Source of the DNA: Deltaproteobacteria bacterium HGW-Deltaproteobacteria-13
Lineage (GTDB): Bacteria; Desulfobacterota; Syntrophia; Syntrophales; Smithellaceae
DNA length: 64,000 bases
Direction of reading: 5' to 3'
Assembly: GCA_002840555.1 (NCBI GenBank)
Contig: PHBJ01000002.1
Span: 1-64,000 of the forward strand
The notes under the pieces are model-generated. The model was not told the DNA's origin. It was given only the letters and a program-made list of their open reading frames with translations, and searched no databases. Position numbers and translations under genes: made by a program. Below are positions 2-40,553 of this stretch, piece by piece; the first letter of the stretch is position 1, and every line of letters begins with the position of its first letter.

Positions 2-82
2 ATGGATAATCCGGCCTGTCACCAGCTCAAGTTCCTTGAGCCAAGGGTGGATTTCTTTAAGAAACATCCAAGTCAACTGTAG
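2..82 (+). other. possible C-terminal end of an upstream gene
   Basis: A frame open from the window edge reads 26 residues (…HQLKFLEPRVDFFKKHPSQL) and stops with TAG at 80-82. It could be the tail of a gene that starts outside the window. The family is not recognised, and so short a frame may be chance. It overlaps the chimeric gltX reading frame in another phase. Confidence 0.25.
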
Positions 83-1304
83 GCAGGCTAGCGTACCTTC
101 GAGCTTCTATGAAAAAAAAGCTACCTGCCACGTCATTTTCGCTTTTATTTTTGTGCTTGTATCTATTAACCTCTCGGGTTGTAAAAACGGTCCCGACAAA
201 AGCAAACTCGACGAAGAACGCAAGGCTTTGATCCTGAGCAAGCGCATGCCGCGCTATATGGGCAAATGCAGAAATCTGACGGCAGACGAGAGAAAAGAGA
301 GAGAAAATGAAGGCAGAAAACCTTCATTTCGCTTTAGGGTTCAGCCGCAAACCATTGTATTTGAAGATTTAATCCGTGGGGTGATAAGGTTTGAAGGAGA
401 GGCTATGGGCGATTTCATCATTGTCCGTTCCAATGGCATGCCCGCCTATAATTTCGCTGTTGTTATTGATGATCATCTGATGAATATCACTCATGTCATT
501 CGCGGTGAAGATCATCTTTCCAATACCGCTTTGCAGATTATGCTTTACCATGCTTTCGGATTTGAGCCGCCGGTCTTTGCGCATCATTCATTAATTCTGG
601 GGAAAGACCGCGCCAAACTCAGCAAGCGACACGGTTCGGTTTCTATCGGTGAGTTCCGCAAGCAGGGAATTTTACCGGAGGCTATGATTAATTACCTGGG
701 GCTTTTGGGAAGCTCTTTTACTGATGGAAGGGAAGTCCTGTCCCGTGAAGAAATGATTGCCGGTTTTATGTTAGAGCGTGCCTCCAAAAGCGGCGCGATA
801 TTTGATGAAGAAAAACTGCATTGGCTTAACGCCATTTATATCAGGAATTGTGAAACGGAAGATTTACTGAGGCGGCTTAAACCGTTTTTAGAAGGCGCAG
901 GTTTTAAAAACGGCATTACTGATTCAGAATGGTTCAGGCAAGTTATAGAACTTGTCAAGGATGAATTGACGACGCTTGCTGGCATTGAAAGTCACATCAG
1001 CATATTTTTTGATGATCAATATAAACTCACCGCTGAGGCCAAAGAAATACTGGAAAAAGATACCGCACGCAAGGTTGTGAGGTCCTTTGCGGAATACTTG
1101 GATACTCACGCTGCGGAGCCGCAAAATCTTTATTCTGCGGCAATGAAATACGTGAAGGAAAAAGCCGGTGTGAAAGGTAAGGAATTATTCATGCCCATTC
1201 GGGCGGCCATGACCGGGAAAATCCACGGACCGGAACTGGATAAAGTGTTTGCCGTTCTGGGTAAAGATGTTGCTTTGCGAAGACTTAAACCTTTTGTCGG
1301 TTGA
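36..1304 (+). pseudogene. gltX: gltX remnant: glutamyl-tRNA synthetase lacking its N-terminus, joined to a lipoprotein-signal-like leader
   Basis: From about residue 57 to the end (422) the frame is glutamyl-tRNA synthetase: the MPRYMGKCR segment, the GEDHLSNTALQ region, a KLSKRHGS (KMSKS-type) loop and the anticodon-binding half. The first ~110 residues of the family, including the HIGH-type ATP site, are absent, so the protein as read cannot be an active synthetase. In their place is a hydrophobic stretch ending in LSGC, a typical lipobox. That stretch has no nearby in-frame ATG. An ATG at 109 followed by eight A (112-119) lies one frame off, and one extra A would give a lysine-rich lipoprotein signal start. 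This suggests a recombination or assembly junction near 205-215 plus a homopolymer frameshift. An intact gltX must exist elsewhere if the join is real. It ends convergent to the glycosyltransferase at 1367. Confidence 0.75.
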
Positions 1305-1366: not shown

Positions 1367-2461
1367 TTACAATTTATCAGGGGAAATGTATTGAGAGATT
1401 GCGGCGTCATGAATATGCCTTCGGATGACGTCCGGTGTAGCCTCGGTGAACAGCCTCACAGTCCAGGAGTCCCAGCAGGGGCGCAAATCCACGTGTGATC
1501 CTTCAGCAGAACAAATCGAATCGAGCAATTCAAAAAGCCTTGTCTTGTGCCGCTCAATTATTTGCAGTGTGCGACGCCTGATTTCATCGGGTGGAACCGG
1601 ACATTCAAGCATTTTTCTCACACCGTCGGCAACCTCTTCGGCGTTGTCACCGACAATTTGAACGTAATCCGGGTCAAAGAATTCATCACGGCCGCCGCGG
1701 CTTTTTGTGGAAACAATGGGCAGCCCGGCCAGCAGATACTGGATACTCGCCAGCATGGCGCCTTCCTCAGCGGAGAGGCAAAGGCCGACGCAGCATTGAT
1801 TGAGCGCGGTGTTGATCTCGGGAAAACTCATCCACCGGTAATCTGTCGTAAGCGGATCGTTGAACCAGTATGCCTGCGGGAGGATTTTTCTGATTGAACG
1901 GGTGTAAGATTCATCGTGATGATCGGGGGCTCGTGCCGTGATTAGTGCAAGATTTTTAATTTTGACTGCGAGGTGATGTCGTTTGAATGGACTTATTCTA
2001 GCGTCATACACCGCATCGAACCGTTTTTCAGAATCCGTCAAAATTCTAAAAATTGCCGGATTGACAAAAGCATTGTGACTCACCCAGGCGGTCTCCAGGC
2101 CGGCATCGATCAGCTTCCGGTATTCCTCTTTGCTGTTGGCCATGAATATCATCCGGTGATTGCGATAATGCCGAAGATGTCGCGCCTGCAGAAGCTTTAA
2201 TTGTTCAATTCGAGTGGAGATGTCATGGACCCAGGAAAGATGAATTAGCATGTAGACTGTCTGATGTTTGAATGTTCGGAGAACCGAAAGCAGTGCGGCG
2301 GCCCTGCTGTGTATAATCCAGTCAGTGACGTAGATAATGAGAGGATTCGATGAAAAGACTACACAATCGCCGCCATTCAAGTAAGGTTCTAACCATCCGA
2401 CAGGCAGCGATGTTGCCGCCCATGTTTTTAGTTTATTTTCCAATTTCAGACGTAGGAACAA
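1367..2461 (-). CDS. GT-B fold glycosyltransferase (family 1/4-like)
   Basis: The protein has 364 residues. The C-terminal half carries the donor-binding pattern of GT-B enzymes: LSAEEGAMLASIQYLLAGLPIVST followed by a glycine-rich turn (residues ~235-265). The middle has a short (D)ARISPFKRHHLA segment like the phosphate-binding loop of these enzymes. It probably transfers a nucleotide-activated sugar in surface polysaccharide or glycoconjugate synthesis at the cytoplasmic face; donor and acceptor cannot be read. The start appears to be TTG at 2461, with AAGGAT about 10 bases upstream. Its own sigma-70-type promoter lies at 2517-2544, so it may be transcribed apart from the seven-gene locus upstream. 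It is somewhat short for the family, and the N-terminal domain looks reduced. Confidence 0.75.
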   Translation of the reverse strand: MFLRLKLENKLKTWAATSLPVGWLEPYLNGGDCVVFSSNPLIIYVTDWIIHSRAAALLSVLRTFKHQTVYMLIHLSWVHDISTRIEQLKLLQARHLRHYRNHRMIFMANSKEEYRKLIDAGLETAWVSHNAFVNPAIFRILTDSEKRFDAVYDARISPFKRHHLAVKIKNLALITARAPDHHDESYTRSIRKILPQAYWFNDPLTTDYRWMSFPEINTALNQCCVGLCLSAEEGAMLASIQYLLAGLPIVSTKSRGGRDEFFDPDYVQIVGDNAEEVADGVRKMLECPVPPDEIRRRTLQIIERHKTRLFELLDSICSAEGSHVDLRPCWDSWTVRLFTEATPDVIRRHIHDAAISQYISPDKL

Positions 2462-2592: not shown

Positions 2593-3987
2593 TTATTTCT
2601 CTTTCTCTTCGTTAAAAGGTTTAAACAAAATCCAAGAATAATCTTTCCTGTTATCAAAAATATGCATCAAAGAGGCCATGCTAAAAAACGGCAGCAGCCA
2701 GATCATGCGGCTTCCGTATCGATTATGAGGTTCATTCAAAGTTCCGGTGACAAAAGCGCTGACCATGTAGGCGCATACGATCCATAGAATGAGAAGGAGG
2801 GGAACATATTGCCGGCGGCTTGATAAGATCAAAGAGATTACTGTCGTGATAAGAATGCTGAAACAAATGATCACGCGGTGAAGACGGTTGAAAGAATTCA
2901 ATGATAGTTTATTCAGGCTTTGCCGCGCATTCAAATAGGCATGAAAATCGTTCGGATAGTATTCTCTGATTTGGTCTGTCGGATACGGCGTGTCAATATA
3001 GGATGTTATTCCGTACCAGTTGTTGATCATGAGGATTTGCAGAAAAGAATTTTTCAAAGAATTCTTAAAAATCGGGAGAGGGTAGCGTTTAATCGTTTCT
3101 TTGACAATTTCGCTTCCTTCAACACGATAGCCGGTTATCCAGCCCACTTTGCGGAAGGGGCTTTCTTTGGACCAGAGAAATTTATCAGGCTGGGAAGGCA
3201 GTTCCCCGATATACCCGCAGAGTTTATATTTTTTCTCCGGACAGCTTTCTTGCAGGTAATCAACCGCAGGACCGTCGCAAATCAGCCTCGAAAGAAGAAA
3301 TGCATACCCTCCTCGAGACATGGTGAACTCACCATATAAACGGTAATTGTTGGCGATAACCAGCGTAAAGGCCAGAGTAATTGCGCAAAAAGAACTTAAT
3401 AAATGCGGTACAGGCATCCTTTCTTTATTTTTTATCAACATCCGGAAAAACCATGCCAGAAAAATAATCCCCGCTGCCAGAGGGATATGAGTTAGATGCA
3501 CGGTGGCGGATAATACGGTCAGCAGGAACAGATATATTTTTTCACCGGAACTCAGGCGATCGGTGCAGAAAATTAAAAGGTAAAGCGAAAGAATCATTAC
3601 CCCCGTGAATATATCCGGCATGATAAAGCCGGTGAACCAGGGCAGGTTTGTAAAGACACAAAGAAAAGTGATTACAATGAAATAGGCGATCAGAGATATT
3701 GTTTGAAATACAATCCTCATCACGAGTCGAAGGAGATGAGCGGTAATCAGGGATTGCAGAAAAACAACCGCCCAAAGTGACTTCAACCACAGAGAGGGAT
3801 AGATAAAAAGATTATAAAAAAAGCTGCGAATCAAATTATCCTGCAGCCCGATATAGCCGGCGGTATCGGGATAGACGAGGGGATAACCGTTATAAACAGC
3901 CGCTCCGGATAAAAGAAGGGCGGAGATAATAAGCGTGATCCACGTGATGAATTTATCCCATGTCATATTCGGCATCCCATCCTTCAT
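2593..3987 (-). CDS. polytopic membrane protein, GT-C glycosyltransferase-like
   Basis: The 464-residue protein has about ten hydrophobic segments. After the first segment comes NGYPLVYPDTAGYI (residues ~28-41), an acidic loop in the place where GT-C enzymes using lipid-phosphate sugars carry a catalytic aspartate. A soluble loop (~220-360) and further membrane helices follow. This fits membrane glycosyltransferases or hypothetical proteins found beside GT2 genes, but no family is certain. It starts 4 bases after the radical SAM gene ends, so the two are co-transcribed. It is the last gene of the PqqD/HprK locus. A flippase or polymerase-like role is an alternative. Confidence 0.6.
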   Translation of the reverse strand: MKDGMPNMTWDKFITWITLIISALLLSGAAVYNGYPLVYPDTAGYIGLQDNLIRSFFYNLFIYPSLWLKSLWAVVFLQSLITAHLLRLVMRIVFQTISLIAYFIVITFLCVFTNLPWFTGFIMPDIFTGVMILSLYLLIFCTDRLSSGEKIYLFLLTVLSATVHLTHIPLAAGIIFLAWFFRMLIKNKERMPVPHLLSSFCAITLAFTLVIANNYRLYGEFTMSRGGYAFLLSRLICDGPAVDYLQESCPEKKYKLCGYIGELPSQPDKFLWSKESPFRKVGWITGYRVEGSEIVKETIKRYPLPIFKNSLKNSFLQILMINNWYGITSYIDTPYPTDQIREYYPNDFHAYLNARQSLNKLSLNSFNRLHRVIICFSILITTVISLILSSRRQYVPLLLILWIVCAYMVSAFVTGTLNEPHNRYGSRMIWLLPFFSMASLMHIFDNRKDYSWILFKPFNEEKEK

Positions 3988-3991
3988 TTTA

Positions 3992-5068
3992 TTAATTGTT
4001 TAATGGAAGCAAATGCTTTTTTACATAACGGACTGCCCATTTGGCGGACCGATCCGCAAAATGACGAAATTGGTTATTTATCCCGGTATTAAAGCCTTCC
4101 ACGTCGCTGCATGCCCGCAGGCATCCAGGGCATTTTTTTTCCATGGCCGCTATGGCAAGCTCTCTGTGGATGTCATTTAGCCAGATTGAAGAAAGGCTCA
4201 TTTCGTTTACGTTGCCCATGTTTTTAGAGATGGCAAAACACGGATGAACATTGCCATTAATATCCACGACCAGCGTCTTCAAAGGAATATGACAGCCGCG
4301 GGGAGGGAAGGGATTTGTTCCTTCAACAAGATAAGAGGCTACGTGTTTCATTATGTTTTCCGTGTAAATGATCACGTGCTTTTGTCTGGCATATTTCAAA
4401 AGATCCTTTAATTTATTTGCGACTATTTTTTTTTCATCCGGTCTGAATTCAAATGCCGCATGATCGCAATCCGGCTGGGCTAAATCAAGACAGAAGGGCT
4501 GTATGGATATGACTTCGATTTTTAACTCGGAAGCCAGATCGACAATTTTTTGCAGATGATCGATGGTCGGGCGCATGATGATCGAGGCAATGCTCCTTTT
4601 TATTCCCATTCGCCCAAGTTCCCGGAGATTTGCCACTGCCCGGTCAAACACGCCATTGCCCCGTAATTCATCGTGGATGGATTTGGGGCCATCGACAGAA
4701 ACAATAATGACCAGACTTTTAATAGCCGCCAGTTTCTCGATCAATCCCGGACGATTTAACAAAAGGCCGTTGGAGACGACATAGATCTCACGAAATCCAA
4801 TTCGGTCCGCATAGGCAAGGATTTCCGGCATATCCTCCCGCATGAAGAGCTCTGTCCCGTAAGGATCAAAGCGCCTTGCTCCCAGTTCATAAGCCTCATC
4901 CAACAGGGATAGAATCTTTTCATAGGGAGGATCTTTTGCCTGAAGTTTCCAGAACCTGCACATTTTACAACGAAGATTGCATCGCGTTGTAAGTTGGATG
5001 GCAATGGAATCAGGAGAGCTCCCTGATAAAAGATCTCGTCTGTTGTTGCTCGCAGGCGATAACATCAT
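3992..5068 (-). CDS. radical SAM/SPASM domain protein
   Basis: The 358-residue protein carries the radical SAM [4Fe-4S] motif CNLRCKMC (Cys30, Cys34, Cys37). A TIM-barrel core follows, with VSNGLLL and VSVDGP strands. The C-terminal third has a SPASM-like cysteine set: CHIPLKTLVVDINGNVHPC, then CPGCLRAC, which usually binds auxiliary iron-sulfur clusters. Such enzymes often modify ribosomally made peptides or other macromolecules using 5'-deoxyadenosyl radicals. Here it stands in the PqqD/HprK/glycosyltransferase operon, 35 bases after a GT2 gene and 4 bases before a membrane protein. The PqqD-like protein upstream is a plausible substrate-presenting partner. The substrate is unknown. Confidence 0.85.
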   Translation of the reverse strand: MMLSPASNNRRDLLSGSSPDSIAIQLTTRCNLRCKMCRFWKLQAKDPPYEKILSLLDEAYELGARRFDPYGTELFMREDMPEILAYADRIGFREIYVVSNGLLLNRPGLIEKLAAIKSLVIIVSVDGPKSIHDELRGNGVFDRAVANLRELGRMGIKRSIASIIMRPTIDHLQKIVDLASELKIEVISIQPFCLDLAQPDCDHAAFEFRPDEKKIVANKLKDLLKYARQKHVIIYTENIMKHVASYLVEGTNPFPPRGCHIPLKTLVVDINGNVHPCFAISKNMGNVNEMSLSSIWLNDIHRELAIAAMEKKCPGCLRACSDVEGFNTGINNQFRHFADRSAKWAVRYVKKHLLPLNN

Positions 5069-5103
5069 GAATCCCCGGTTAAGAAAAAGAAGATTGTAAA
5101 AAA

Positions 5104-5790
5104 TTACGCCTTGGCACGACGGCGGTCCAAGGCCGCTTTTAAAGCGTGAACATAACCTGATCGCTGATCGCGCAGGTAAGTTCCCATATTCGTCACGTGA
5201 ATGCGCCGCTTCATCAAAACATCCGGCAGCATGATAGTCTTCAGATTCGATTCAGTGGCTCTGGCATGCCAGTCAATAAATTCGCCGATTCGCAATTCAT
5301 TCTTAAATAGTCCAACGCGCAAAAAAGATTTCTTCTTAATGAGCATCGTGCCGGCATGATGTCCGGGCATGATTTCAAAAGGAATATTAATCCTGTTTTT
5401 CTCCTCCGGGGTTAATTCCGGACTGTAAAACTGCCGGATATAACCAAAGGCTGCATCGAGGTGGGGATCGTTTTCAAATGCAGTCCACTGCCGCCTTATT
5501 TTTTCTTCCATCCAGAGATCGTCCGCATCGAGAAAGGCAAAATAATCGCCGTACGCGTTTGTAATCCCCAGATTACGGGCAGCTCCGGCGCCGGCGTTTG
5601 CCTGGTCAAAATAGCGGACCGAAGATCCGAAATGCTTTATGACCTTTGCCGTGTTGTCGATAGAGCCATCATTCACAACGACCACATCAAGTTTGAAGTC
5701 CGTCTGAGCCAGCACGCTTTCAATGGCTTCACCTAAATATTTTTCAGCATTGTACGCGGGGATAATGACAGTGATCAGGGAACCCTTCAT
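5104..5790 (-). CDS. family 2 glycosyltransferase (copy 3 of the locus)
   Basis: The 228-residue protein is a GT-A enzyme. The N-terminus reads ITVIIPAYNAEKYLGEAIES, then VVNDGS, and the metal-binding DADD motif lies near residue 100. ATG 5790 is chosen because AAGGAG lies 6 bases upstream; a longer frame to 5823 lacks this. It is closely related to the next gene upstream, sharing QFYSPEL/QFFSPEL in the same place and a basic C-terminus (LDRRRAKA), so the pair arose by tandem duplication. It likely transfers a sugar from a nucleotide donor. The acceptor is unknown and may be a lipid, glycan or the product of the peptide-type enzymes in the same operon. Confidence 0.85.
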   Translation of the reverse strand: MKGSLITVIIPAYNAEKYLGEAIESVLAQTDFKLDVVVVNDGSIDNTAKVIKHFGSSVRYFDQANAGAGAARNLGITNAYGDYFAFLDADDLWMEEKIRRQWTAFENDPHLDAAFGYIRQFYSPELTPEEKNRINIPFEIMPGHHAGTMLIKKKSFLRVGLFKNELRIGEFIDWHARATESNLKTIMLPDVLMKRRIHVTNMGTYLRDQRSGYVHALKAALDRRRAKA

Positions 5791-5834
5791 CCAAACTCCT
5801 TCGTTAATGCGTCTGACCCGCATTTGACAAATTA

Positions 5835-6515
5835 TTATTTTTTACGTTTTGCATCGAGATGCGCTTTTATAATTTTAACGCGATCATTAATGAAAGGCCT
5901 GCTGACGATGCCTTTATTATTTTTATGAAGCCTTCTCATGTAAGTTAGATCGGTTAACATGATGGTCTTCATATGAAGTTCCCGGGCCCGTAAAATCCAT
6001 GCAACTTCCTCACCGACCCGCCAGTTCTCATCAAAAAGCCCGACGCGAAAAAAAGCGTCGCGTTTGATCAGCATGGTGGCAGGCAGGCAGCCGGGCAACG
6101 CTTCCGGCGCGCAGAAAAACCGGCTTTTGAACTCCTCATCCAGTTCCGGACTGAAAAATTGCTTCACATGACCGAATACCGCCTCCAATTCAGCGTCGGC
6201 AAGGAATGCCTGAATTTGGATGTCCAATTTGTTACTCAACCATATGTCATCGGCATCAAGGAAAGAAAAAAAATCTCCGCGGGCTTCTTTAATCCCCTTG
6301 TTGCGCGCCGCGCCGGAACCGGCATTATCCTGAAAAAAGTAACGAAGAGAAGGAATGTATTCCTGAACGATTTGGGATGTCCGGTCGGTAGATCCGTCAT
6401 CGACAACAATAATATCAAGGGAGAAGCCTTTTTGAGAAAGGACGCTTTCTATGGCTTCGGCCAGATAGTGCTCTCCGTTAAAAACGGGTATAATGACGCT
6501 GATGATGGGTTTCAA
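5835..6515 (-). CDS. family 2 glycosyltransferase (copy 2 of the locus)
   Basis: The 226-residue protein has the GT-A layout: ISVIIPVFNGEHYLAEAIES at the start, VVDDGSTDRT, and FLDADDIW near residue 95. The N-terminus nearly matches the GT2 half of the HprK-like fusion upstream (SVIIPVFNGEH in both). The middle (QFFSPEL) matches the copy at 5104-5790. It follows the fusion gene by 8 bases, so translation is probably coupled. The short C-terminal half may bind a small or peptide-like acceptor, but this cannot be read from sequence. Confidence 0.85.
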   Translation of the reverse strand: MKPIISVIIPVFNGEHYLAEAIESVLSQKGFSLDIIVVDDGSTDRTSQIVQEYIPSLRYFFQDNAGSGAARNKGIKEARGDFFSFLDADDIWLSNKLDIQIQAFLADAELEAVFGHVKQFFSPELDEEFKSRFFCAPEALPGCLPATMLIKRDAFFRVGLFDENWRVGEEVAWILRARELHMKTIMLTDLTYMRRLHKNNKGIVSRPFINDRVKIIKAHLDAKRKK

Positions 6516-6523
6516 GGTTTATT

Positions 6524-8308
6524 CTATTCCCGCATTCGTCTTCGTTCGAGGGATTTCTTAAAAACTTTCATGACATTGAGTTCCAGCATGTTTCTTCCTT
6601 CCGTCATATTGCCGCCGTGCCTTCTGACATACAGGGATGTTTCTTCCAGTCGTTTTACAGGAAGACTCATTTCTGCGGCGCGGATAAACCAGTCCGAATC
6701 CTCACCGAATCGGAGCGCCGGATCGAAAAGACCCACTTTTTCGAACGCTGATTTGCGGTAGATAGCCGCTCCGATGTAATGAGGAAAAGATTCTTTCGGA
6801 TTGCCGACATATTCATAACGGCCGCTCGCTTTGTTAACCTCCATGAGTTGCGCGTATCCGCGGATAACCTCCATGTCAGGGTTTCTCAGCATTTCATCAA
6901 CCATAATATTCAGGTTATTCTCGGGCCATAGATCATCCGCATCCAAAAATACTATAAATTCTCCTGATGCGTCGCGAATGCCTTTATTGCGCGCGGCGGC
7001 AGGTCCGTTGTTGTCCTGGGTGAAATAGCGGATATCGGCGGGAAGATTCTTGATGGCCGCATCCGTGCCGTCTGTTGAACCGTCATTGATGATAATCATT
7101 TCCAGCGCCGGATATTTTTGCGACAAAACATTGTCGACGGCTTCTTGAATAAAATGTTCACCATTGAAAACAGGAATGATGACACTGACCAATGGCCTTT
7201 CGTCTTTCCGGCGGGAGTTCCAGGGATTAACATTTTGCAAAGGCACGTCGTTGTCCAGACCGGACAAAAAATCTGATATCGCTGCCGGAATGCCGGTAAA
7301 ATCCTTTCCCGCCTCGAGAATATAATGGGGAAGAGACGACACCAGTTTACTGATGTAAGCATGCGTGTGGAGACCGACGTACGGCAACTGAGACATGGTC
7401 GTAAATGACATCGCCCGCTGGATATCCCAGCGGGAAACCGGTTTAATGACTGATTCAGAATGGTCAGCAATTTGAGGCGTTAATATGGCCCGAAGAGGCA
7501 TTTCAATCTTTAATCTTTGACTGAGTTCAGGATTAAGAAAAAGAACCGCCTTTTCCTGGTCCAGTTTCTCCATGTTATTGATAAACCGGGACAGACCGGG
7601 GAAGTTAACCACATGATCGGCATTCAACTTTGCCGTACTGTACAGACTGACAACTTTTGGCGCCGGGTCCAGTTCGGTGATAACGTAGTCATCGGCGACA
7701 TAGAAAAGACCCGCCTGCAAACAGGATAGTGCCGCTGTTGATTTACCGACTCCGCCTTTCCCTGTGATCAGGACGGCTCCCTGCTCCGTGCCTACAGCGG
7801 CAGCGTGCAGCAGCTGGCAGCTGTTTTTCTCCATCCACCAGTGAAAGAGCGTTCTGAGCGGAGAGGCAAGAACCCAGTAGGGCAATGTCTCGGATGTCTG
7901 GACCCAGTAAATGCCTATGTTTTTCTCCAGGTCCGCAAGATTAACAGAGCATTCAATCCAGTGAAAAGCAGCTTTTATTCTCCGGCTGTTAAATCCCCAA
8001 ATGTCGCCGCGGTCGGTAAAGCAATCCTTGGTACAGGGAGGAGGAATCATTTCCACATGGGTAGAGTCACTGTCCCAGATACAAATTGTAAAATCCGGAA
8101 TTGAAGAATCCGGCAGGCGCAGATGCTCCAATGCACGGGTCAGATAGGGAACAAGCCGGTCTCCCGCGAATTTCAGACAAACCGTCGTAGGGCCTATCCG
8201 GTAATAATAATTGATTTCACCTGCGGTGTCTTTTGCCTGGATAAATTTGTCATAACTCTTCTTAAAGAAGACCTGCTGTTCGATTTCGCTTTTTTGCGGC
8301 TTGTACAT
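6524..8308 (-). CDS. HPr-kinase-like domain fused to a family 2 glycosyltransferase
   Basis: The protein has 594 residues from ATG 8308, with AAGGACC 8-9 bases upstream. Residues ~1-170 are a poorly conserved front part. A Walker A loop GKGGVGKS lies at 183-190 and the VADDYV strand at 204-209, the arrangement of HprK-type serine kinase/phosphorylase cores and their PqqD-associated relatives. From about 371 a complete GT2 domain follows: SVIIPVFNGEH, INDGSTDGT and DADD at 456-459. The C-terminus is basic (LERRRMRE), as in the two GT2 genes downstream. HprK-like proteins near PqqD proteins are known as possible peptide kinases. Fusion to a glycosyltransferase suggests that the two steps act on one substrate, which is inference. 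It is not ordinary carbon-catabolite HprK, because no HPr gene is nearby. Confidence 0.85.
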   Translation of the reverse strand: MYKPQKSEIEQQVFFKKSYDKFIQAKDTAGEINYYYRIGPTTVCLKFAGDRLVPYLTRALEHLRLPDSSIPDFTICIWDSDSTHVEMIPPPCTKDCFTDRGDIWGFNSRRIKAAFHWIECSVNLADLEKNIGIYWVQTSETLPYWVLASPLRTLFHWWMEKNSCQLLHAAAVGTEQGAVLITGKGGVGKSTAALSCLQAGLFYVADDYVITELDPAPKVVSLYSTAKLNADHVVNFPGLSRFINNMEKLDQEKAVLFLNPELSQRLKIEMPLRAILTPQIADHSESVIKPVSRWDIQRAMSFTTMSQLPYVGLHTHAYISKLVSSLPHYILEAGKDFTGIPAAISDFLSGLDNDVPLQNVNPWNSRRKDERPLVSVIIPVFNGEHFIQEAVDNVLSQKYPALEMIIINDGSTDGTDAAIKNLPADIRYFTQDNNGPAAARNKGIRDASGEFIVFLDADDLWPENNLNIMVDEMLRNPDMEVIRGYAQLMEVNKASGRYEYVGNPKESFPHYIGAAIYRKSAFEKVGLFDPALRFGEDSDWFIRAAEMSLPVKRLEETSLYVRRHGGNMTEGRNMLELNVMKVFKKSLERRRMRE

Positions 8309-8350
8309 CAAAATGGTCCTTTTTCATCAGCAATAAATTTTTCAAAGACA

Positions 8351-9508
8351 TCATCGGTGGCGCACTTGCAAAGGCTTTGCCACAAACATGTTAGCGGCGA
8401 TTCGTATCCCTTTGTATAAGAGATCACCTGAATGACGGGCATTTAATCTCCATTGCAAAGACCGGGAAAATGTAAAGACGGAAACAACTCCTCTTCCGGC
8501 GTTGAGCCTGCGAAACCGGCAAAGATGACAGCAGAACGCGGCATAGGGGCCGCTGTTTTCAGTTTCCCGGCTGCCGATCATAAAACGGTATTCAATCTTT
8601 TCCAGGTAGGATACCCGAAGATTGATGATGGTCATCATGACATCGGGTGGAATCGGGGCGCTAAACTTCTCTTGTAAATATTGCAGCCCTGTTTTCAAGC
8701 GCAGGCATAAGTGATGTTTCCGGGCCAGGCCAATTAATCGTTGCCAATCGATTTTAAAATCCGCCGAATTGATCAGTGTTAACGCGTCGGCGATCCAGCG
8801 GATCGGAGGGACCGGATTCCAGACAACGCCGTGAATAATTACATGAAATAACATATCCGTGGGATTGGGTGCTAAAGAATGAATGTTTGCCATCTTTACC
8901 GGCAGAGCGTTATCCCAGAAATCTTTTTCATACTCATCCCGGCAACCGTTAAACGGCCGCCAATGAAGATCGAATTCTTTTCCTTGGTGATTACTCAACT
9001 GAATGGCATGGCCGTAAGTTATGTCCTGTTCAGATAAAGGAACAGATGATGTCCATCCTGCCTTTTGTAGTAATTCGGTCGTGAGGCGAGCTTGTTTTAA
9101 GGGAACTAGGACATCGATGTCGGCCATAGGCCGGGCTCCGTTGTTCTTATAGTAAAGCAGTGATAAAGAAGCCCCTTTGAGAAGCATTGTTTTAATGCCT
9201 GCCTGTTGCAGAACATCGACAACTTTAGCCATCTCATGAAACAGGGTTTGATTTTTACTCCAAGCCTGGCGATAAATCCCCTTAAGTTTTCCCATGGCGG
9301 GATCACTCACGTCCTGCTTCTGCAGGTTGGTATAAAGCAGAGGGAGTAAACGGAAAGATCCCGGCTCAAGGTATCCCTCCCAGTCAGCCGAATCCTGCCA
9401 ATTTCTCCAGGCTGTAATCGACTCCTGGCCCGAAAGCAAAGCCGCTTTGAGAAGAAGTTCCTGATGGGGGGTTGCTAAGTCACAATATCCGGGATTAATC
9501 GTATTCAT
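8351..9508 (-). CDS. nucleotidyltransferase family protein (NTP_transf_5 type)
   Basis: The 385-residue protein contains KTMLLKGASLSLLYYKNNG and then ARPMADIDVLV (residues ~115-145). This is the pattern of nucleotidyltransferase-fold proteins in which the DxD pair (ADIDVLV) binds metal. A helical remainder follows, with HWRPFN and HLCLRLK segments. Proteins of this group recur beside PqqD-like and HprK-related genes; their substrate is unknown. It lies 27 bases after the PqqD-like gene and 42 bases before the HprK-GT2 gene, in the same operon. The upstream ribosome site is weak, so translation may be coupled to the PqqD-like gene. Confidence 0.8.
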   Translation of the reverse strand: MNTINPGYCDLATPHQELLLKAALLSGQESITAWRNWQDSADWEGYLEPGSFRLLPLLYTNLQKQDVSDPAMGKLKGIYRQAWSKNQTLFHEMAKVVDVLQQAGIKTMLLKGASLSLLYYKNNGARPMADIDVLVPLKQARLTTELLQKAGWTSSVPLSEQDITYGHAIQLSNHQGKEFDLHWRPFNGCRDEYEKDFWDNALPVKMANIHSLAPNPTDMLFHVIIHGVVWNPVPPIRWIADALTLINSADFKIDWQRLIGLARKHHLCLRLKTGLQYLQEKFSAPIPPDVMMTIINLRVSYLEKIEYRFMIGSRETENSGPYAAFCCHLCRFRRLNAGRGVVSVFTFSRSLQWRLNARHSGDLLYKGIRIAANMFVAKPLQVRHR

Positions 9509-9535
9509 AAAGTTTAAGAAATTGCCGCTGCCCGT

Positions 9536-9997
9536 TCATTCTGAAGGCTTGATTGATGGCCATCCTGTTGCATCCACTTCATGGATAGGGTCTAAAAGCA
9601 GCAAATCCTTCATGTCCGTATACTTACTCAAAACAGGAATATCAAAAGCAGCCTTGCTGGATTTTACCGTAATTTGATCCTTCCAGTTTTGCGGCAAAAG
9701 CGAATCGTCCGATTTACCCTCAACGGCAATGACCAAACCTTCCTGCTTGAGTTGTGTGATAAATGAGTTCACCGCGTTTTCCTCGTCTCCCGGCGAGCAT
9801 TCATAATTGTTGCGGATCAGCGGTAGAATCTCGCTTACGGGAACGCCTTTTTCGATATAGGTCCAGATATCAGCTCCGACATTAACGACACTATAATAAT
9901 TGCCCGAATCCAGATTTAAAATCACCGTTTCACCATCGATGTTTTCATGTACGATATTCGGTTCGTTAATTTTTAAGTAATCACCATTCCCCATCAT
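9536..9997 (-). CDS. PqqD-like (RRE fold) protein with a conserved-looking C-terminal tail
   Basis: The 153-residue protein begins with a PqqD-type domain (residues ~8-95). It shows the typical ETVILNLDSGNYYSVVNVGADIW core, in which a winged-helix fold binds leader peptides. A linker follows, then a tail (about 118-147) with KYTDMKDLLLLD, PIHEVD and GWP. Both ATGs (9997 and 9994) fit the GAGGTGG site upstream. It is the first gene of the locus, behind the promoter at 10130-10158. By family it should present a peptide or protein to the modifying enzymes of the operon. No separate precursor gene is visible nearby, so the tail itself could be the substrate; this is inference. Confidence 0.85.
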   Translation of the reverse strand: MMGNGDYLKINEPNIVHENIDGETVILNLDSGNYYSVVNVGADIWTYIEKGVPVSEILPLIRNNYECSPGDEENAVNSFITQLKQEGLVIAVEGKSDDSLLPQNWKDQITVKSSKAAFDIPVLSKYTDMKDLLLLDPIHEVDATGWPSIKPSE

Positions 9998-10030
9998 TGA
10001 GCCACCTCTAAGTCATTAATTTTATAAAAG

Positions 10031-10061
10031 ACTCCATACCGGCTATCGTGAGCTATGGAGT
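10031..10061 (-). promoter_or_regulatory. leader hairpin upstream of the PqqD-like gene (possible attenuator)
   Basis: ACTCCATA (10031-10038) pairs with TATGGAGT (10054-10061), giving an 8-bp stem and 15-base loop. On the minus strand it is followed by TCTTTT and lies about 34 bases before the first start codon, inside the ~125-base leader of the locus. It may be a weak terminator, an attenuator or a stabilising stem. Confidence 0.4.
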
Positions 10062-10129
10062 TTAATTTTATATCAAGATAAATCATGATTATCACGAAAC
10101 AATAATTTAATGGCAGTGCCAGCTCGGGA

Positions 10130-10158
10130 AATATAGGGAAGTTATGCCTGGATGTCAA
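10130..10158 (-). promoter_or_regulatory. sigma-70-type promoter of the PqqD/HprK/GT locus
   Basis: Minus strand TTGACA (10158-10153), a 17-base spacer and TATATT (10135-10130). Spacing and -35 are ideal. The expected start near 10122 gives a leader of about 125 bases before the PqqD-like gene. This supports one transcript for the seven genes down to 2593. Confidence 0.7.
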
Positions 10159-10214
10159 TTATTATTTCTCATGAATTTTGTGGTGTTATGTGCTGACGGC
10201 AGGCAATTTCCAGT

Positions 10215-10598
10215 TCATTTTATTCGTGTTTGCCTGGGATCGTTCTTCACGTATGCAATGATGTAAACAATGATATTTATAAAGATGACCATTGCACCGA
10301 GAACTTGTTGGATGGCGGATGTCAGGTTCTCAGGGTAGATGACCGGGATTAAGTATCGGAGTATAAAGTCTCCGCTATATGAACTGCCTCCCGCAAGATT
10401 GCGAAAATAATTTTCCAGCGGAGTTAAAGGACAAACCCAGGAAAAAATTTCCACGGCAGCCCCCCATATTGCCGACGGCAGGTGCACCAGCGCCATGCGA
10501 GGCCAACGGATTACCAGCAAACCGCCGCAGACAACAAACACAATAAATAAGAAATGTGCCCCGACAACGGCATCCGTAAGAATGTTGTACACCTTCAC
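10215..10598 (-). CDS. DUF2784 family membrane protein
   Basis: The 127-residue protein has four hydrophobic segments. Its motifs are GGLLVIRWPRMALVHLPSAIWG and CPLTPLENYFRNLAG, then a long loop with YLIPVIYPENL before the last helix. These match the DUF2784 family of small inner-membrane proteins with no assigned function. It follows the SMP-30-like gene by 36 bases on the same strand and may share its transcript. Confidence 0.85.
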   Translation of the reverse strand: MKVYNILTDAVVGAHFLFIVFVVCGGLLVIRWPRMALVHLPSAIWGAAVEIFSWVCPLTPLENYFRNLAGGSSYSGDFILRYLIPVIYPENLTSAIQQVLGAMVIFINIIVYIIAYVKNDPRQTRIK

Positions 10599-38404: not shown

Positions 38405-38965
38405 TCACGAATCTTTTAATTCAAATTTGTAATAAATATCGTTATTACCCAGTGAGAATCCTCTGACCCGGTGCTCAACAACTTTTTTGCCGAAAATAAT
38501 AAGAGCCTGCCTTACGTAACCCATAACAAGGAACTCGAAGTAAATGTGTTTGGTCGGAAGTCCGGCGATGGTGATATGAATAGTGTTGTTCTCAAATCGT
38601 GCGGTAAAAGTACCTCCATCAAAATAAGTCGACCAGAGTTTGGGCATACCCGCCTCCACAAACTGCTTGATATCTTTTGTCAAAAGATAAGAGTGGTAGG
38701 GGCCTCCCTGCGACAGGGCGAATTCGGCGGATTTTTCTCCAAGCTTCCAGTAGTGGGTATTATCGTTGCTAAAGAATTCCTTGAGCACATCATCGAGAAA
38801 CAAGATGAATTTATCCAAGGGGATGAGACTGACGCTCATGATCATCTGGCTGAAATATTTGTCCTTCGCCGTTAGCTTCGTGATAAAGGAATTCCAGCGC
38901 TCCTCTCCGAAAGCTTTGATAATTGTATCTTTTCGTGTCAGGTAAGCAGTGCCTTTTACGTTCAT
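38405..38965 (-). CDS. tandem paralogue 1 (unknown family, possibly DUF2378/heme-NO-binding-like)
   Basis: The 186-residue protein shares its full length with the next two genes, about half identical at this distance. Common marks are NVKGTAYLT near the start, FGEERWNSF, MSVSLIPLDKFILFLDD, a central SYLLTKDIKQFV and WSTYFDGGTFTARFENN. The start (MKG followed by FGEERW) resembles DUF2378-type proteins of deltaproteobacteria or the heme-NO-binding fold, but the match is weak. It is the most diverged copy and last on the strand. Confidence 0.65.
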   Translation of the reverse strand: MNVKGTAYLTRKDTIIKAFGEERWNSFITKLTAKDKYFSQMIMSVSLIPLDKFILFLDDVLKEFFSNDNTHYWKLGEKSAEFALSQGGPYHSYLLTKDIKQFVEAGMPKLWSTYFDGGTFTARFENNTIHITIAGLPTKHIYFEFLVMGYVRQALIIFGKKVVEHRVRGFSLGNNDIYYKFELKDS

Positions 38966-39022
38966 ATCAAAACCTCCTCAGATATTATGTGGGTTCAATA
39001 ATATGTCAACTATATTCTGCGG

Positions 39023-39583
39023 TCAAGAGTCTTTGATTTCAAACTGGAAATAAATATCATCATCGCCTGCTGCCATACTCCTGATCCGTTTCGCAACAGT
39101 TTTCTTTCCGAAAATTTTGAGAGCTTTCTGAAAGTAACCCATAATGAGGTACTCGAAATAATTATGTTTAAATTGAAGCCCGGCGATTTTAATATGAGCG
39201 ATGTTATTTTCAAACTTTGCGGTGACGATACCACCATCAAAATAGGTCGACCAGAATTTGGGCATGACCGATTCGACGAACTGCTTTAAATCCTTTATGA
39301 GCAGATAAGATTTATAAGGGCCATCCGGCGAAAGAGCAAATTGAGCGGCCGCCTTACCGAACGTTAAATAATGCTTGCTGTCGTTATTGAAAAATTCCCT
39401 AATCAATTCGTCAAGAAAAAGGATGAATTTATCGACTGGAATGGGTGTAACGGACATGATGATATTGCTGAAAAATTTGTCCTTTGCCGCCAGTCCGGCA
39501 ACAAAGGAATTCCAGCGTTCCTCACCGAAAACGGCGATGATAGTGGTCTTCCCTGTAAGATAAACAGTGCCTTTTACGTTCAT
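39023..39583 (-). CDS. tandem paralogue 2
   Basis: The 186-residue protein has the same outline as its neighbours: NVKGTVYLTGKTTII, FGEERWNSF, TPIPVDKFILFLDELIREF, FWSTYFDGGIVTAKFENN and the end AAGDDDIYFQFEIKDS. It is much closer to copy 3 than to copy 1. Over the last ~100 bases (39041-39141) it is nearly identical to copy 3, with only two mismatches. Function is unknown. Confidence 0.65.
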   Translation of the reverse strand: MNVKGTVYLTGKTTIIAVFGEERWNSFVAGLAAKDKFFSNIIMSVTPIPVDKFILFLDELIREFFNNDSKHYLTFGKAAAQFALSPDGPYKSYLLIKDLKQFVESVMPKFWSTYFDGGIVTAKFENNIAHIKIAGLQFKHNYFEYLIMGYFQKALKIFGKKTVAKRIRSMAAGDDDIYFQFEIKDS

Positions 39584-39642
39584 ACTGAAACCTCCTGAGA
39601 GTGCCTGTGTGGATATAATAGGATGTTAAATATATTTTATGG

Positions 39643-40203
39643 TCAGGATTCTTTTATTTCAAACTGGTAATAAATATCATCATCGCCCGCTGCCATACTC
39701 CTGATCCGTTTCGCAACAGTTTTCTTTCCGAAAATTTTGAGAGCTTTCTGAAAGTAACCCATGATGAGGTGCTCAAAATAATTATGTTTGAATTTAAGTC
39801 CGGTGATTTTGAGATGAGCAACGTTGTTCTCGAACTTTGTGACAACGGTCCCTTCATCAAAATAGGTCGACCAGAATTTGGGCATGACCGATTCAATGAA
39901 CTGTTTTGTATCCTTGGTGAGCAGATAAGATTTGTATATGCCGTCCGGCGACAGGGCATATTGCGCGGCGACCTTCCCGAAAGTCACATACTGCATCATA
40001 TCATTATTGAAAAATTCCTTAACAAGCTCGTCAAGAAAAAAAATAAATTTATCCAACGGAACGGGTGTAACGGACATAATCATGTTGTTGAAAAATTTGT
40101 CCTTCGCTCCCAGTTTGGCAATAAATACATTCCATGGTTCTTCGCCGAAAACTTTAATAATCGTGGTTTTTCCTGTAAGATAAATGATGCCTTTTACGTT
40201 CAT
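39643..40203 (-). CDS. tandem paralogue 3 (first in transcription)
   Basis: The 186-residue protein starts at ATG 40203, supported by AAGGAG; the longer frame to 40275 is not favoured. It shares NVKGIIYLTGKTTIIKVFGEEPWNVF, PVPLDKFIFFLDELVKEFF and the C-terminal KTVAKRIRSMAAGDDDIY with copy 2. The three genes share orientation and nearly equal gaps of 57 and 59 bases. They are likely one transcript or the product of recent tandem duplication. Confidence 0.65.
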   Translation of the reverse strand: MNVKGIIYLTGKTTIIKVFGEEPWNVFIAKLGAKDKFFNNMIMSVTPVPLDKFIFFLDELVKEFFNNDMMQYVTFGKVAAQYALSPDGIYKSYLLTKDTKQFIESVMPKFWSTYFDEGTVVTKFENNVAHLKITGLKFKHNYFEHLIMGYFQKALKIFGKKTVAKRIRSMAAGDDDIYYQFEIKES

Positions 40204-40553
40204 ATTGTTCTCCTTGGCATGGATATGTGGATAGAATATTGTGTAAAAGATATCCTGTGATACATGAATATGCAAGGATAAAATTTATTTTATTGGAACG
40301 GGGAAAAGTGGGTCACCGGCAGCAAATTGAAAAAATCAAACATATAAAGATATTTATAAATGAGAATGATCCTGATCATTCCCAGCAGCAGCCGGCAGGC
40401 TTAAGATGCCTTTATTCGTCAAAAATGCAGATATTAATTCTTATTGCATCTTGTAAGATGTTTTGTTAGTTTCAGCCACAAAACTGATAGAATCTGATAA
40501 TTTCTTAAATCCATCAGATAAGACAATGGAGTCCCGCTGAGGAGAAATAAAGG
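40204..40553. other. 350-base intergenic region upstream of mutL
   Basis: This is AT-rich DNA between the divergent paralogue cluster and mutL. GAGGAGAAATAAAGG (ending at 40553) is the mutL ribosome site. No promoter of good spacing and no small gene were found. Confidence 0.5.

Follow-up and report, generated by a model that had tools for sequence, protein, structure and literature searches.

A PqqD-Like Protein with a Conserved C-Terminal Peptide in a Kinase- and Glycosyltransferase-Rich Operon: A Candidate Precursor Fused to Its Recognition Domain

Organization of the Operon

The first 64,000 nucleotides of contig PHBJ01000002.1 (assembly GCA_002840555.1, Deltaproteobacteria bacterium HGW-Deltaproteobacteria-13, family Smithellaceae), hereafter referred to as the window, harbor an operon of seven genes whose first product is a PqqD-like protein composed of a RiPP (ribosomally synthesized and post-translationally modified peptide) recognition element (RRE), a linker, and a conserved C-terminal peptide; this peptide is the best candidate for the precursor of the system. 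The seven open reading frames (ORFs) lie on the minus strand at positions 9997-9536, 9508-8351, 8311-6524, 6515-5835, 5823-5104, 5068-3992, and 3987-2593, are separated by 27, 39, 8, 11, 35, and 4 bases, and follow a near-consensus sigma-70-type promoter (TTGACA-17-TATATT, 10130..10158, minus strand; 11 of 12 consensus matches). Promoter-like sites as a whole are not more abundant than expected by chance (17 versus a mean of 20.1 in shuffled sequences); those with at least 11 of 12 matches number two in 13 kb, the mean in 30 first-order simulated sequences being 0.17. The ORF calls and the rarity of such sites in simulated sequence bear out the first-pass annotation, which had proposed a single seven-gene operon behind one near-consensus promoter; the gaps, which it had given as 4-44 bases, are indeed short, their measured range being 4-39.

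The PqqD-like protein (153 aa, 9536..9997) matches the Pfam PqqD family (7.3e-11), the matches to the NCBIfam PqqD models being only below the model cut-offs. It is followed by a nucleotidyltransferase of the NTP_transf_5 family (385 aa, 8351..9508; PF14907, 6.7e-41) and by a protein of 595 aa (6524..8311) in which the Pfam scan places an HprK-like kinase domain (Hpr_kinase_C, 5.8e-6, below the Pfam cut-off) and a family 2 glycosyltransferase (GT2) domain (4.6e-35). Two short GT2 enzymes come next, of 226 aa (5835..6515; PF00535, 2e-33) and 239 aa (5104..5823; PF00535, 8.9e-34), and then a radical SAM/SPASM enzyme (3992..5068; PF04055, 1.7e-15, and PF13186, 9.2e-10) and a protein of 464 aa (2593..3987) judged by eye to be a membrane protein, all on the minus strand. 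Six of the seven products thus fit the families originally assigned to them; the last one, with homologues at loci L034, L036, and L038, matched neither Pfam nor NCBIfam at E 0.1, so its former label as GT-C-like is not confirmed. When 35 HprK-like kinases were aligned, H169, K190, and D208 were conserved in all of them and D207 in 33; by the correspondence mapped in this analysis, these residues appear to fit the His-Lys-Asp-Asp set of the lasso kinases (PMC9266682).

As for the conservation of the gene order across related genomes, which the first-pass annotation had named as a check, the exact order was found in one further genome of the same genus (L038), and other loci of the genus (L034, L035, and L036) harbor parts of the set.

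The PqqD-Like Protein: RRE, Linker, and C-Terminal Peptide

Residues 7-93 (9719..9979) constitute an RRE domain of the lasso B1 type (TbiB1, 1.9e-17 with the A1 profile; TbiB1-leader complex 5v1v). They are followed by a linker with high column entropy (residues 94-117, 9647..9718) and by the C-terminal peptide, in which we distinguish a putative in-cis leader (residues 118-130, FDIPVLSKYTDMK, 9608..9646), with its aromatic-xx-P-x-hydrophobic pattern and the order predicted for it by AlphaFold2 (AF2), and a putative core (residues 131-153, DLLLLDPIHEVDATGWPSIKPSE, 9539..9607), with an end motif shared by at least 115 scan loci and a low predicted local distance difference test (pLDDT) score. 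The consensus of the whole peptide is [FYW]xxPxL..[YF].DM.[DE]LLLLDPIH[DE]V...GWP. With this extension (the "tail"), the protein has 153 residues, versus about 82-125 for most tail-less RRE proteins.

In the alignment with 13 distinct relatives, the C-terminal peptide is the best conserved stretch and stands behind a variable linker. The mean column entropy is 2.45 bits in the RRE, 3.40 in the linker (residues 94-116), 1.72 in residues 118-134, and 0.84 in residues 135-147, the last value being largely fixed by the search pattern. The first half of the tail resembles the [Y/W]xxP leader motif that lasso-type RREs bind, as described for RREs of this type in passages of PMC13381572 and PMC12710340.

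The solved folds nearest to the RRE part are lasso RREs solved with a bound leader, namely 5v1v (Z 12.6, root mean square deviation 2.5, 88 aligned residues) and 6jx3 (Z 10.3, 2.0, 85 aligned residues); the PqqD-like protein is a lasso-type RRE by both sequence and fold. In the AF2 model of the window protein, pLDDT is 92 for residues 111-120 and 88 for residues 121-130, with a short strand at 123-126, and falls to 57 and 62 in the blocks of core residues 131-150, the linker scoring 70-78. A cyanobacterial relative gave a similar picture (leader part 95 with a short strand, end 63-64, linker 61-85). The two underlying alignments overlap; the first comprised the window protein and, of the 115 scan proteins, 82 with lengths of 126-170 aa, and the second had 49 rows. 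An ordered leader followed by a disordered end is the expected appearance of a leader held in cis, which would then lie in the groove of the RRE.

The same genome encodes a second tailed PqqD-like protein, about 35% identical to that of the window (L043, G000:C20:46111-46527), with HprK-like, GT2, and NTP_transf_5 genes in a row beside it together with a 277-aa protein matching no family.

Distribution and Variants of the Tail

The DNA pattern DP[IV]H[DE][VI]...GWP was scanned over 84,980 species genomes and retrieved at least 115 stretches, 80 of which were listed with names; all the figures out of 115 given here refer to the motif matches listed. The motif lies inside an ORF at every one of the 115 loci (80/80 in the named subset), and all these ORFs belong to a single group of 116 similar PqqD-like proteins. 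The RRE profile recognised 111 of them, and three others (L058, L094, and L135) are truncated where the stretch ends. The sole listed ORF with the tail motif and no RRE is L130:1701-1952 (minus strand, 83 aa), which is uncut by the stretch end and might be a free-standing tail, a copy in decay, or an assembly error. Since the search pattern fixes nine columns of the tail, conservation was judged on the remaining ones: an aromatic residue is found at -30 in 107 of the 115 tails, P at -27 in 100, Y or F at -22 and D at -20 in 112 each, and M at -19 in 96. The ten columns before -30 are unconserved.

According to the titles of the named records, many of which are metagenome-assembled genomes, the tail occurs in Alpha-, Beta-, Gamma-, and Deltaproteobacteria, Bacteroidetes, Chloroflexi, Acidobacteria, Verrucomicrobia, groups of Planctomycetes and of Actinobacteria, Cyanobacteria, Gemmatimonadaceae, Bacillota, and others. 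The motif pattern gave no match in viral_contigs, this pattern being stricter than the later one and having also missed the tailed loci L004, L039, L044, and L045.

Searches with the RRE only were carried out in the phylum of the window and in those of five other genomes (395, 244, 251, 299, 247, and 247 genomes), using the RRE of the window in the first case and a 41-row RRE alignment in the others. Among the best-scoring matches, 179 of 180 loci were readable (L245 having no readable RRE); 131 of the 179 proteins stop within 22 residues after the RRE, and 48 continue for more than 25. The set leans to close kin: the query RREs were taken from proteins selected by the motif, and no fewer than eight of the 48 (those of the window, its paralogue on C20, G008, and the five search centres) were already known. 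Leaving aside L316, whose long extension is unrelated, there are 47 distinct long extensions: DPIH is present in 43 and GW in 43, DPPxPG replaces DPIH in three (L232, L291, and L353), and L354 has neither of them and no DP.

Other subtypes of the tail were observed as well. An HDDL subtype is without the aromatic-xx-P element. A GW[TS]PEK subtype was found among small genomes belonging to the cyanobacterial phylum (L410, L411, and L412); there the HprK-like protein, of about 500 aa, includes an RRE-like stretch and adjoins a tailed RRE whose tail is longer (GW[TS]PEK...SIGYTKEET type). At L221:9585-11987 (and L081) a single open frame comprises two RRE stretches with the tail peptide between them, plus a kinase match.

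The Conserved Gene Module

The neighbourhood of the tailed gene was analyzed in 44 larger loci, i.e., 34 regions of 30 genomes drawn from the 80 named scan loci, eight loci of the genus or family of the window, a Crinalium plasmid, and the window itself, five genomes contributing two loci each. Counting on all ORFs, irrespective of strand and with profiles built from the same loci, HprK-like kinases and GT2 enzymes are each found within 10 kb in 43 of the 44, NTP_transf_5 proteins in 34, and ABC exporters in 14; the one locus without kinase and GT2 is L219. At the 115 listed scan loci (within 8 kb) the corresponding figures are 89, 88, and 54 for HprK, GT2, and NTP_transf_5, and 12 of the 26 loci without HprK have less than 1 kb of downstream sequence. 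The eight regions with variant tails have a kinase and a GT2 nearby in all cases and an NTP_transf_5 gene in seven.

The comparison of tailed and tail-less RREs in 3-kb loci, uncorrected for relatedness, revealed that a GT2 lies near 13 of 27 tailed versus 1 of 61 tail-less RREs (Fisher P = 2e-7) and an HprK-like kinase near 20 of 27 versus 23 of 61 (P = 0.002). These data support the earlier idea of a glycosyltransferase-heavy, peptide-type system built on PqqD- and HprK-related proteins. They also bear on an alternative explanation, namely an ordinary polysaccharide or glycolipid operon in which the RRE, the kinase, and the nucleotidyltransferase serve a precursor encoded elsewhere in the genome. 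The abundance of glycosyltransferases speaks for it, since GT1/GT4 enzymes, sulfotransferase-like proteins, and FkbM proteins occur nearby in addition to GT2 (46 of 68 unlabelled neighbours scanned), and LPP clusters (linear polyphosphorylated peptides) are located in capsular polysaccharide loci (PMC13381572). Yet such an operon leaves the presence of the tail on RRE proteins of many phyla unaccounted for, as well as the fact that the tail marks the GT2-associated RREs, and we consider this explanation unlikely.

Concerning export and maturation, an MsbA-like exporter is not among the products of the window operon, and no C39 peptidase domain was found in the four ABC exporters scanned. An SpI-like leader peptidase was not seen among the scanned window proteins or the 25 families of the 46 neighbours, no search dedicated to it having been made.

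A kinase tree was built from 64 of 104 kinases, rows shorter than 200 aa having been dropped (39 of 48 near tail-less RREs, 1 of 43 in class I). In this tree the kinases group by tail class. The three kinases associated with DPPxPG tails, which belong to three phyla, form a single supported group (100/97), and the other two variant classes stem from close relatives; the kinases of tailed RREs are separated from those of tail-less RREs with weak support (88/37; 86% of the bootstrap trees), and class I kinases are not one group (3 changes). The grouping by tail class argues for direct dealings between kinase and tail, the latter acting either as substrate or as dock.

Lasso Genes and the Search for a Separate Precursor

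An RRE of the lasso B1 type and a kinase whose residues fit the lasso-kinase set might also be the remains of a lasso peptide cluster that has degenerated or been split. Homologues of the lasso B2 protease (PF13471) do occur in 19 of the 37 genomes, 17 of them scoring over the cut-off, but in none of the 37 is such a gene adjacent to a tailed pqqD, and no macrolactam (asparagine synthase-like) cyclase was found among the ten window proteins scanned, the search being confined to these proteins. The PqqD matches located no farther than 4 kb from a PF13471 gene (G000, G001, G103, G105, and G108) span the RRE part only; in G103 the nearest B2 homologue, about 4 kb from the tailed pqqD, has another PqqD match beside it. 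The identity of the operon as a lasso cluster was therefore rejected, and a split cluster appears very improbable. The earlier view of a system related to lasso clusters without being one is supported by the same data. In the genome of the window, a B2 protease homologue and a tail-less PqqD-like protein lie within about 4 kb of each other at G000:C15:32485-36690, perhaps a separate lasso-like locus.

The possibility of a separate precursor gene was explored in two ways. None of the eight small ORFs listed at 9900-10300 carries a YxxPxVL leader, and 2532 small ORFs (25-110 aa) from the 44 and the 115 loci provided no recurring candidate in their 25 widest groups; these groups, viewed for up to three members each, apparently consist of GT2 and PqqD genes read in antisense, GT2 gene fragments, repeats, and unrelated ORFs, and small ORFs lying beneath longer spurious ones in GC-rich genomes could escape the grouping. 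No group with a YxxPxVL leader being among these 25, a separate precursor gene was rejected on this analysis. Some tail-less RREs associated with HprK do have separate YxxP ORFs (e.g., L298, L299, L301, and L311), a point in favor of the tail as a fused precursor. In the 3-kb loci, same-strand YxxP candidates were found at 5 of 27 tailed loci, 7 of 23 tail-less loci with HprK, and 7 of 39 others (including L316), the antisense control giving 3 of 27, 11 of 23, and 9 of 39; in such a search only individual lasso-like ORFs are informative.

A Possible Role for the Fused Peptide

Based on the data reported above, we suggest that the PqqD-like protein combines in one chain an RRE and the precursor peptide that it recognises, which the enzymes of the operon would phosphorylate and glycosylate, and we assign to this interpretation a probability of roughly 0.55. 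According to the model that we infer, the first part of the tail, the leader ([FYW]xxPxL..[YF].DM), would occupy the RRE groove that receives a separate leader in lasso and LPP systems, and the end of the tail ([DE]LLLLDPIH[DE]V...GWP or its variants) would be presented to the enzymes of the operon. The HprK-like kinase would phosphorylate this end, the NTP_transf_5 enzyme might either modify the phosphate or add a first sugar, and the short GT2 enzymes would build a glycan whose make-up may differ between organisms. The product might be taken out by the MsbA-like exporter, where present (14/44 loci), or by membrane proteins, radical SAM enzymes being optional extras. The analysis itself establishes the fusion, how conserved and widespread it is, the accompanying module, the fold of the RRE, a leader ordered in two models, and the grouping of the kinases by tail class; clamping in cis, the tail as substrate, the sequence of the steps, the acceptor residue, and the product are inferences from these results. 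In passages of PMC13381572 and PMC9266682, an HprK-like kinase phosphorylates the precursor in the LPP and paeninodin systems, and the action of a related kinase on the precursor is counted here in favor of the tail as substrate. The role given to the NTP_transf_5 enzyme is a suggestion; nucleotidyltransferases are described as typical of paeninodin-type phosphorylated lasso clusters, and in the LPP study (PMC13381572) the deletion of one caused no detectable change.

Several observations weigh against this interpretation. The end of the main tail class is conserved far above the expectation for a RiPP core, and a docking peptide would look alike; 24 of the 115 listed cores contain no Ser, Thr, or Tyr; and the strict aromatic-xx-P-x-hydrophobic pattern is found in only 26 of the 47 distinct extensions of the RRE-only set. 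The L130 ORF carries the motif without an RRE and has no kinase, GT2, or NTP_transf_5 gene in its 3.5 kb, no conserved protease was noticed at the loci, and an exporter is found at only 14 of 44. Moreover, pLDDT reports order only, not contact of the tail with the groove, and the YxxP search fails to separate tailed from tail-less loci, so that the contrast regarding a separate precursor is weak.

In the light of these observations, the tail might alternatively be a docking or auto-inhibitory peptide, itself unmodified, that blocks the RRE until the true substrate (another peptide, a protein, or a lipid-linked glycan) displaces it, or that recruits the kinase and the GT2 enzymes to a scaffold. 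The very high conservation of the end, the cores devoid of hydroxyl residues, and the limited occurrence of the strict YxxP-like pattern all fit this possibility, and the grouping of the kinases by tail class would be expected from direct contact of either sort. However, HprK-like kinases near 23 of 61 tail-less RREs indicate that the tail is not needed as a dock, no other recurrent substrate candidate emerged near the loci in the 25 widest small-ORF groups, and the known relatives of the kinase modify a precursor (passages of PMC13381572 and PMC9266682). A docking role is thus a possible explanation to which we give appreciably less credit than to the fused precursor.

The cores without Ser, Thr, or Tyr imply that the acceptor may be Asp or His, or else that the tail merely docks; a hydroxyl residue universal to the core is unlikely in view of their sequences. 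The known relatives of the kinase phosphorylate Ser. A more speculative form of the fused-precursor interpretation, which we regard as rather doubtful, sees in the RRE a "peptide carrier protein" for glycans, i.e., a ribosomal peptide kept in cis as a primer across many phyla, with a non-Ser acceptor. In such a system the kinase might activate the Asp of the D-P pair common to the DPIH and DPPxPG classes, or the His, and the NTP_transf_5 and GT2 enzymes would build an organism-specific glycan on the activated acceptor. If true, glycans or glycopeptides would be made on a ribosomal peptide tethered to a protein, and their attachment, through a phospho-acyl or phosphohistidine bond, would be unusual.

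Comparison with Known Systems

The nearest known system is that of the LPPs (Popov et al. 2026, PMC13381572). They share with the window operon a discrete-type RRE, an HprK-like kinase, an uncharacterised nucleotidyltransferase, a [Y/W]xxPx-hydrophobic leader motif, the lack of a macrolactam cyclase, and glycosyltransferase-rich surroundings, an MsbA-like exporter being found at part of the loci here. The RRE, the kinase, and the nucleotidyltransferase do occur in one cluster in the window; a separate YxxPxVL precursor gene was not found among the eight small ORFs and the 25 groups mentioned above. The LPP precursor (PMC13381572) is encoded by a separate gene, has a variable C-terminus, is phosphorylated on Ser and cleaved by an SpI-like peptidase, and occurs mostly in Bacillota, whereas in the present case the RRE protein carries the peptide, whose end is conserved, GT2 enzymes are part of the module, and many phyla are involved.

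With the paeninodin-type lasso systems, as described in parts of PMC9266682, the operon has in common the lasso B1-type RRE and an HprK-like kinase with the His-Lys-Asp-Asp set. It differs from them in that the tailed RRE has no adjacent B2 protease, a separate precursor was not seen, and the core has no universal Ser.

The PQQ (pyrroloquinoline quinone) and mycofactocin systems combine a PqqD-like RRE with a conserved peptide, and in the case of mycofactocin a radical SAM enzyme and a GT2 take part as well. In contrast to them, the candidate precursor is here fused, a kinase and an NTP_transf_5 enzyme are added, and a radical SAM maturase does not appear as a core enzyme, a radical SAM gene being within 10 kb at only 9 of the 44 larger loci. 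In borosins the precursor is fused to a biosynthetic enzyme, the modifying methyltransferase; the likeness lies in a ribosomal substrate covalently fused to a biosynthetic protein, the difference in the partner, which here is a recognition domain.

No description of the tail motif or of an RRE-precursor fusion was found in our searches of the open-access PubMed Central literature, and none of the fusion in the passages of PMC7470986, PMC12710340, PMC13381572, and PMC9266682 that were consulted; RRE-glycosyltransferase fusions are mentioned by RRE-Finder. We consider the operon a member of a widespread variant, undescribed as far as these searches reach, of the kinase/nucleotidyltransferase RiPP-like systems, with a candidate precursor fused to the RRE and glycosyltransferases among the core enzymes. 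The earlier statement that no precursor gene is visible is then probably wrong: the RRE protein carries the candidate peptide in its own C-terminus, and for this reason the operon looks precursor-less. Likewise, of the proposed glycosylated peptide or glycolipid product of a new kind, the glycosyltransferase-heavy, peptide-type character stands, but the candidate peptide sits in the RRE protein. RiPP mining usually seeks a separate precursor gene near the RRE, and clusters with an RRE-borne candidate therefore look as if they had none; the tail motif makes them findable (at least 115 loci). In addition, one tail variant pairs with one kinase group over three phyla, and the tail provides a defined candidate substrate for the poorly understood HprK-like kinases and NTP_transf_5 enzymes.

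Accessory Genes and Neighbouring Features

Of the genes that the first-pass annotation had counted within the system, those for the radical SAM enzyme and the membrane protein look accessory rather than core: a radical SAM gene lies within 10 kb at the 9 loci mentioned above, and the membrane protein was counted at 2 of 44. A different radical SAM protein (CNxxCxDCNHASP type) is found inside or beside the operon of relatives (L034:4727-5692 and L037:1635-2615). A defence system was also considered and rejected, PADLOC giving weak viperin-like matches only, to the radical SAM protein.

The second promoter-like site with at least 11 of 12 matches (2544-2517) precedes a gene on the minus strand (1367..2461) for a GT1-like glycosyltransferase (GT1, 7.3e-5, a weak match below the cut-off), a possible extra member with a promoter-like site of its own. 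In L035, from the same genus, the gene directly preceding pqqD codes for a homologue with 68% identity, and the GT1-like gene may be part of the operon system.

At the edge of the contig, a gltX-like ORF recognised by eye (36-1304, plus strand) is without its usual N-terminal part and starts with unrelated, lipoprotein-like residues; at the matching position in the same-genus locus L038 (18282-19718) there is a gltX-like ORF of 478 aa. The truncated form is probably due to an assembly join or to a rearrangement at the contig end. Finally, three look-alike tandem ORFs of 186, 186, and 210 aa (MNVKG..YLTGKTTI...) are located on the minus strand of the window at 38405-40275.

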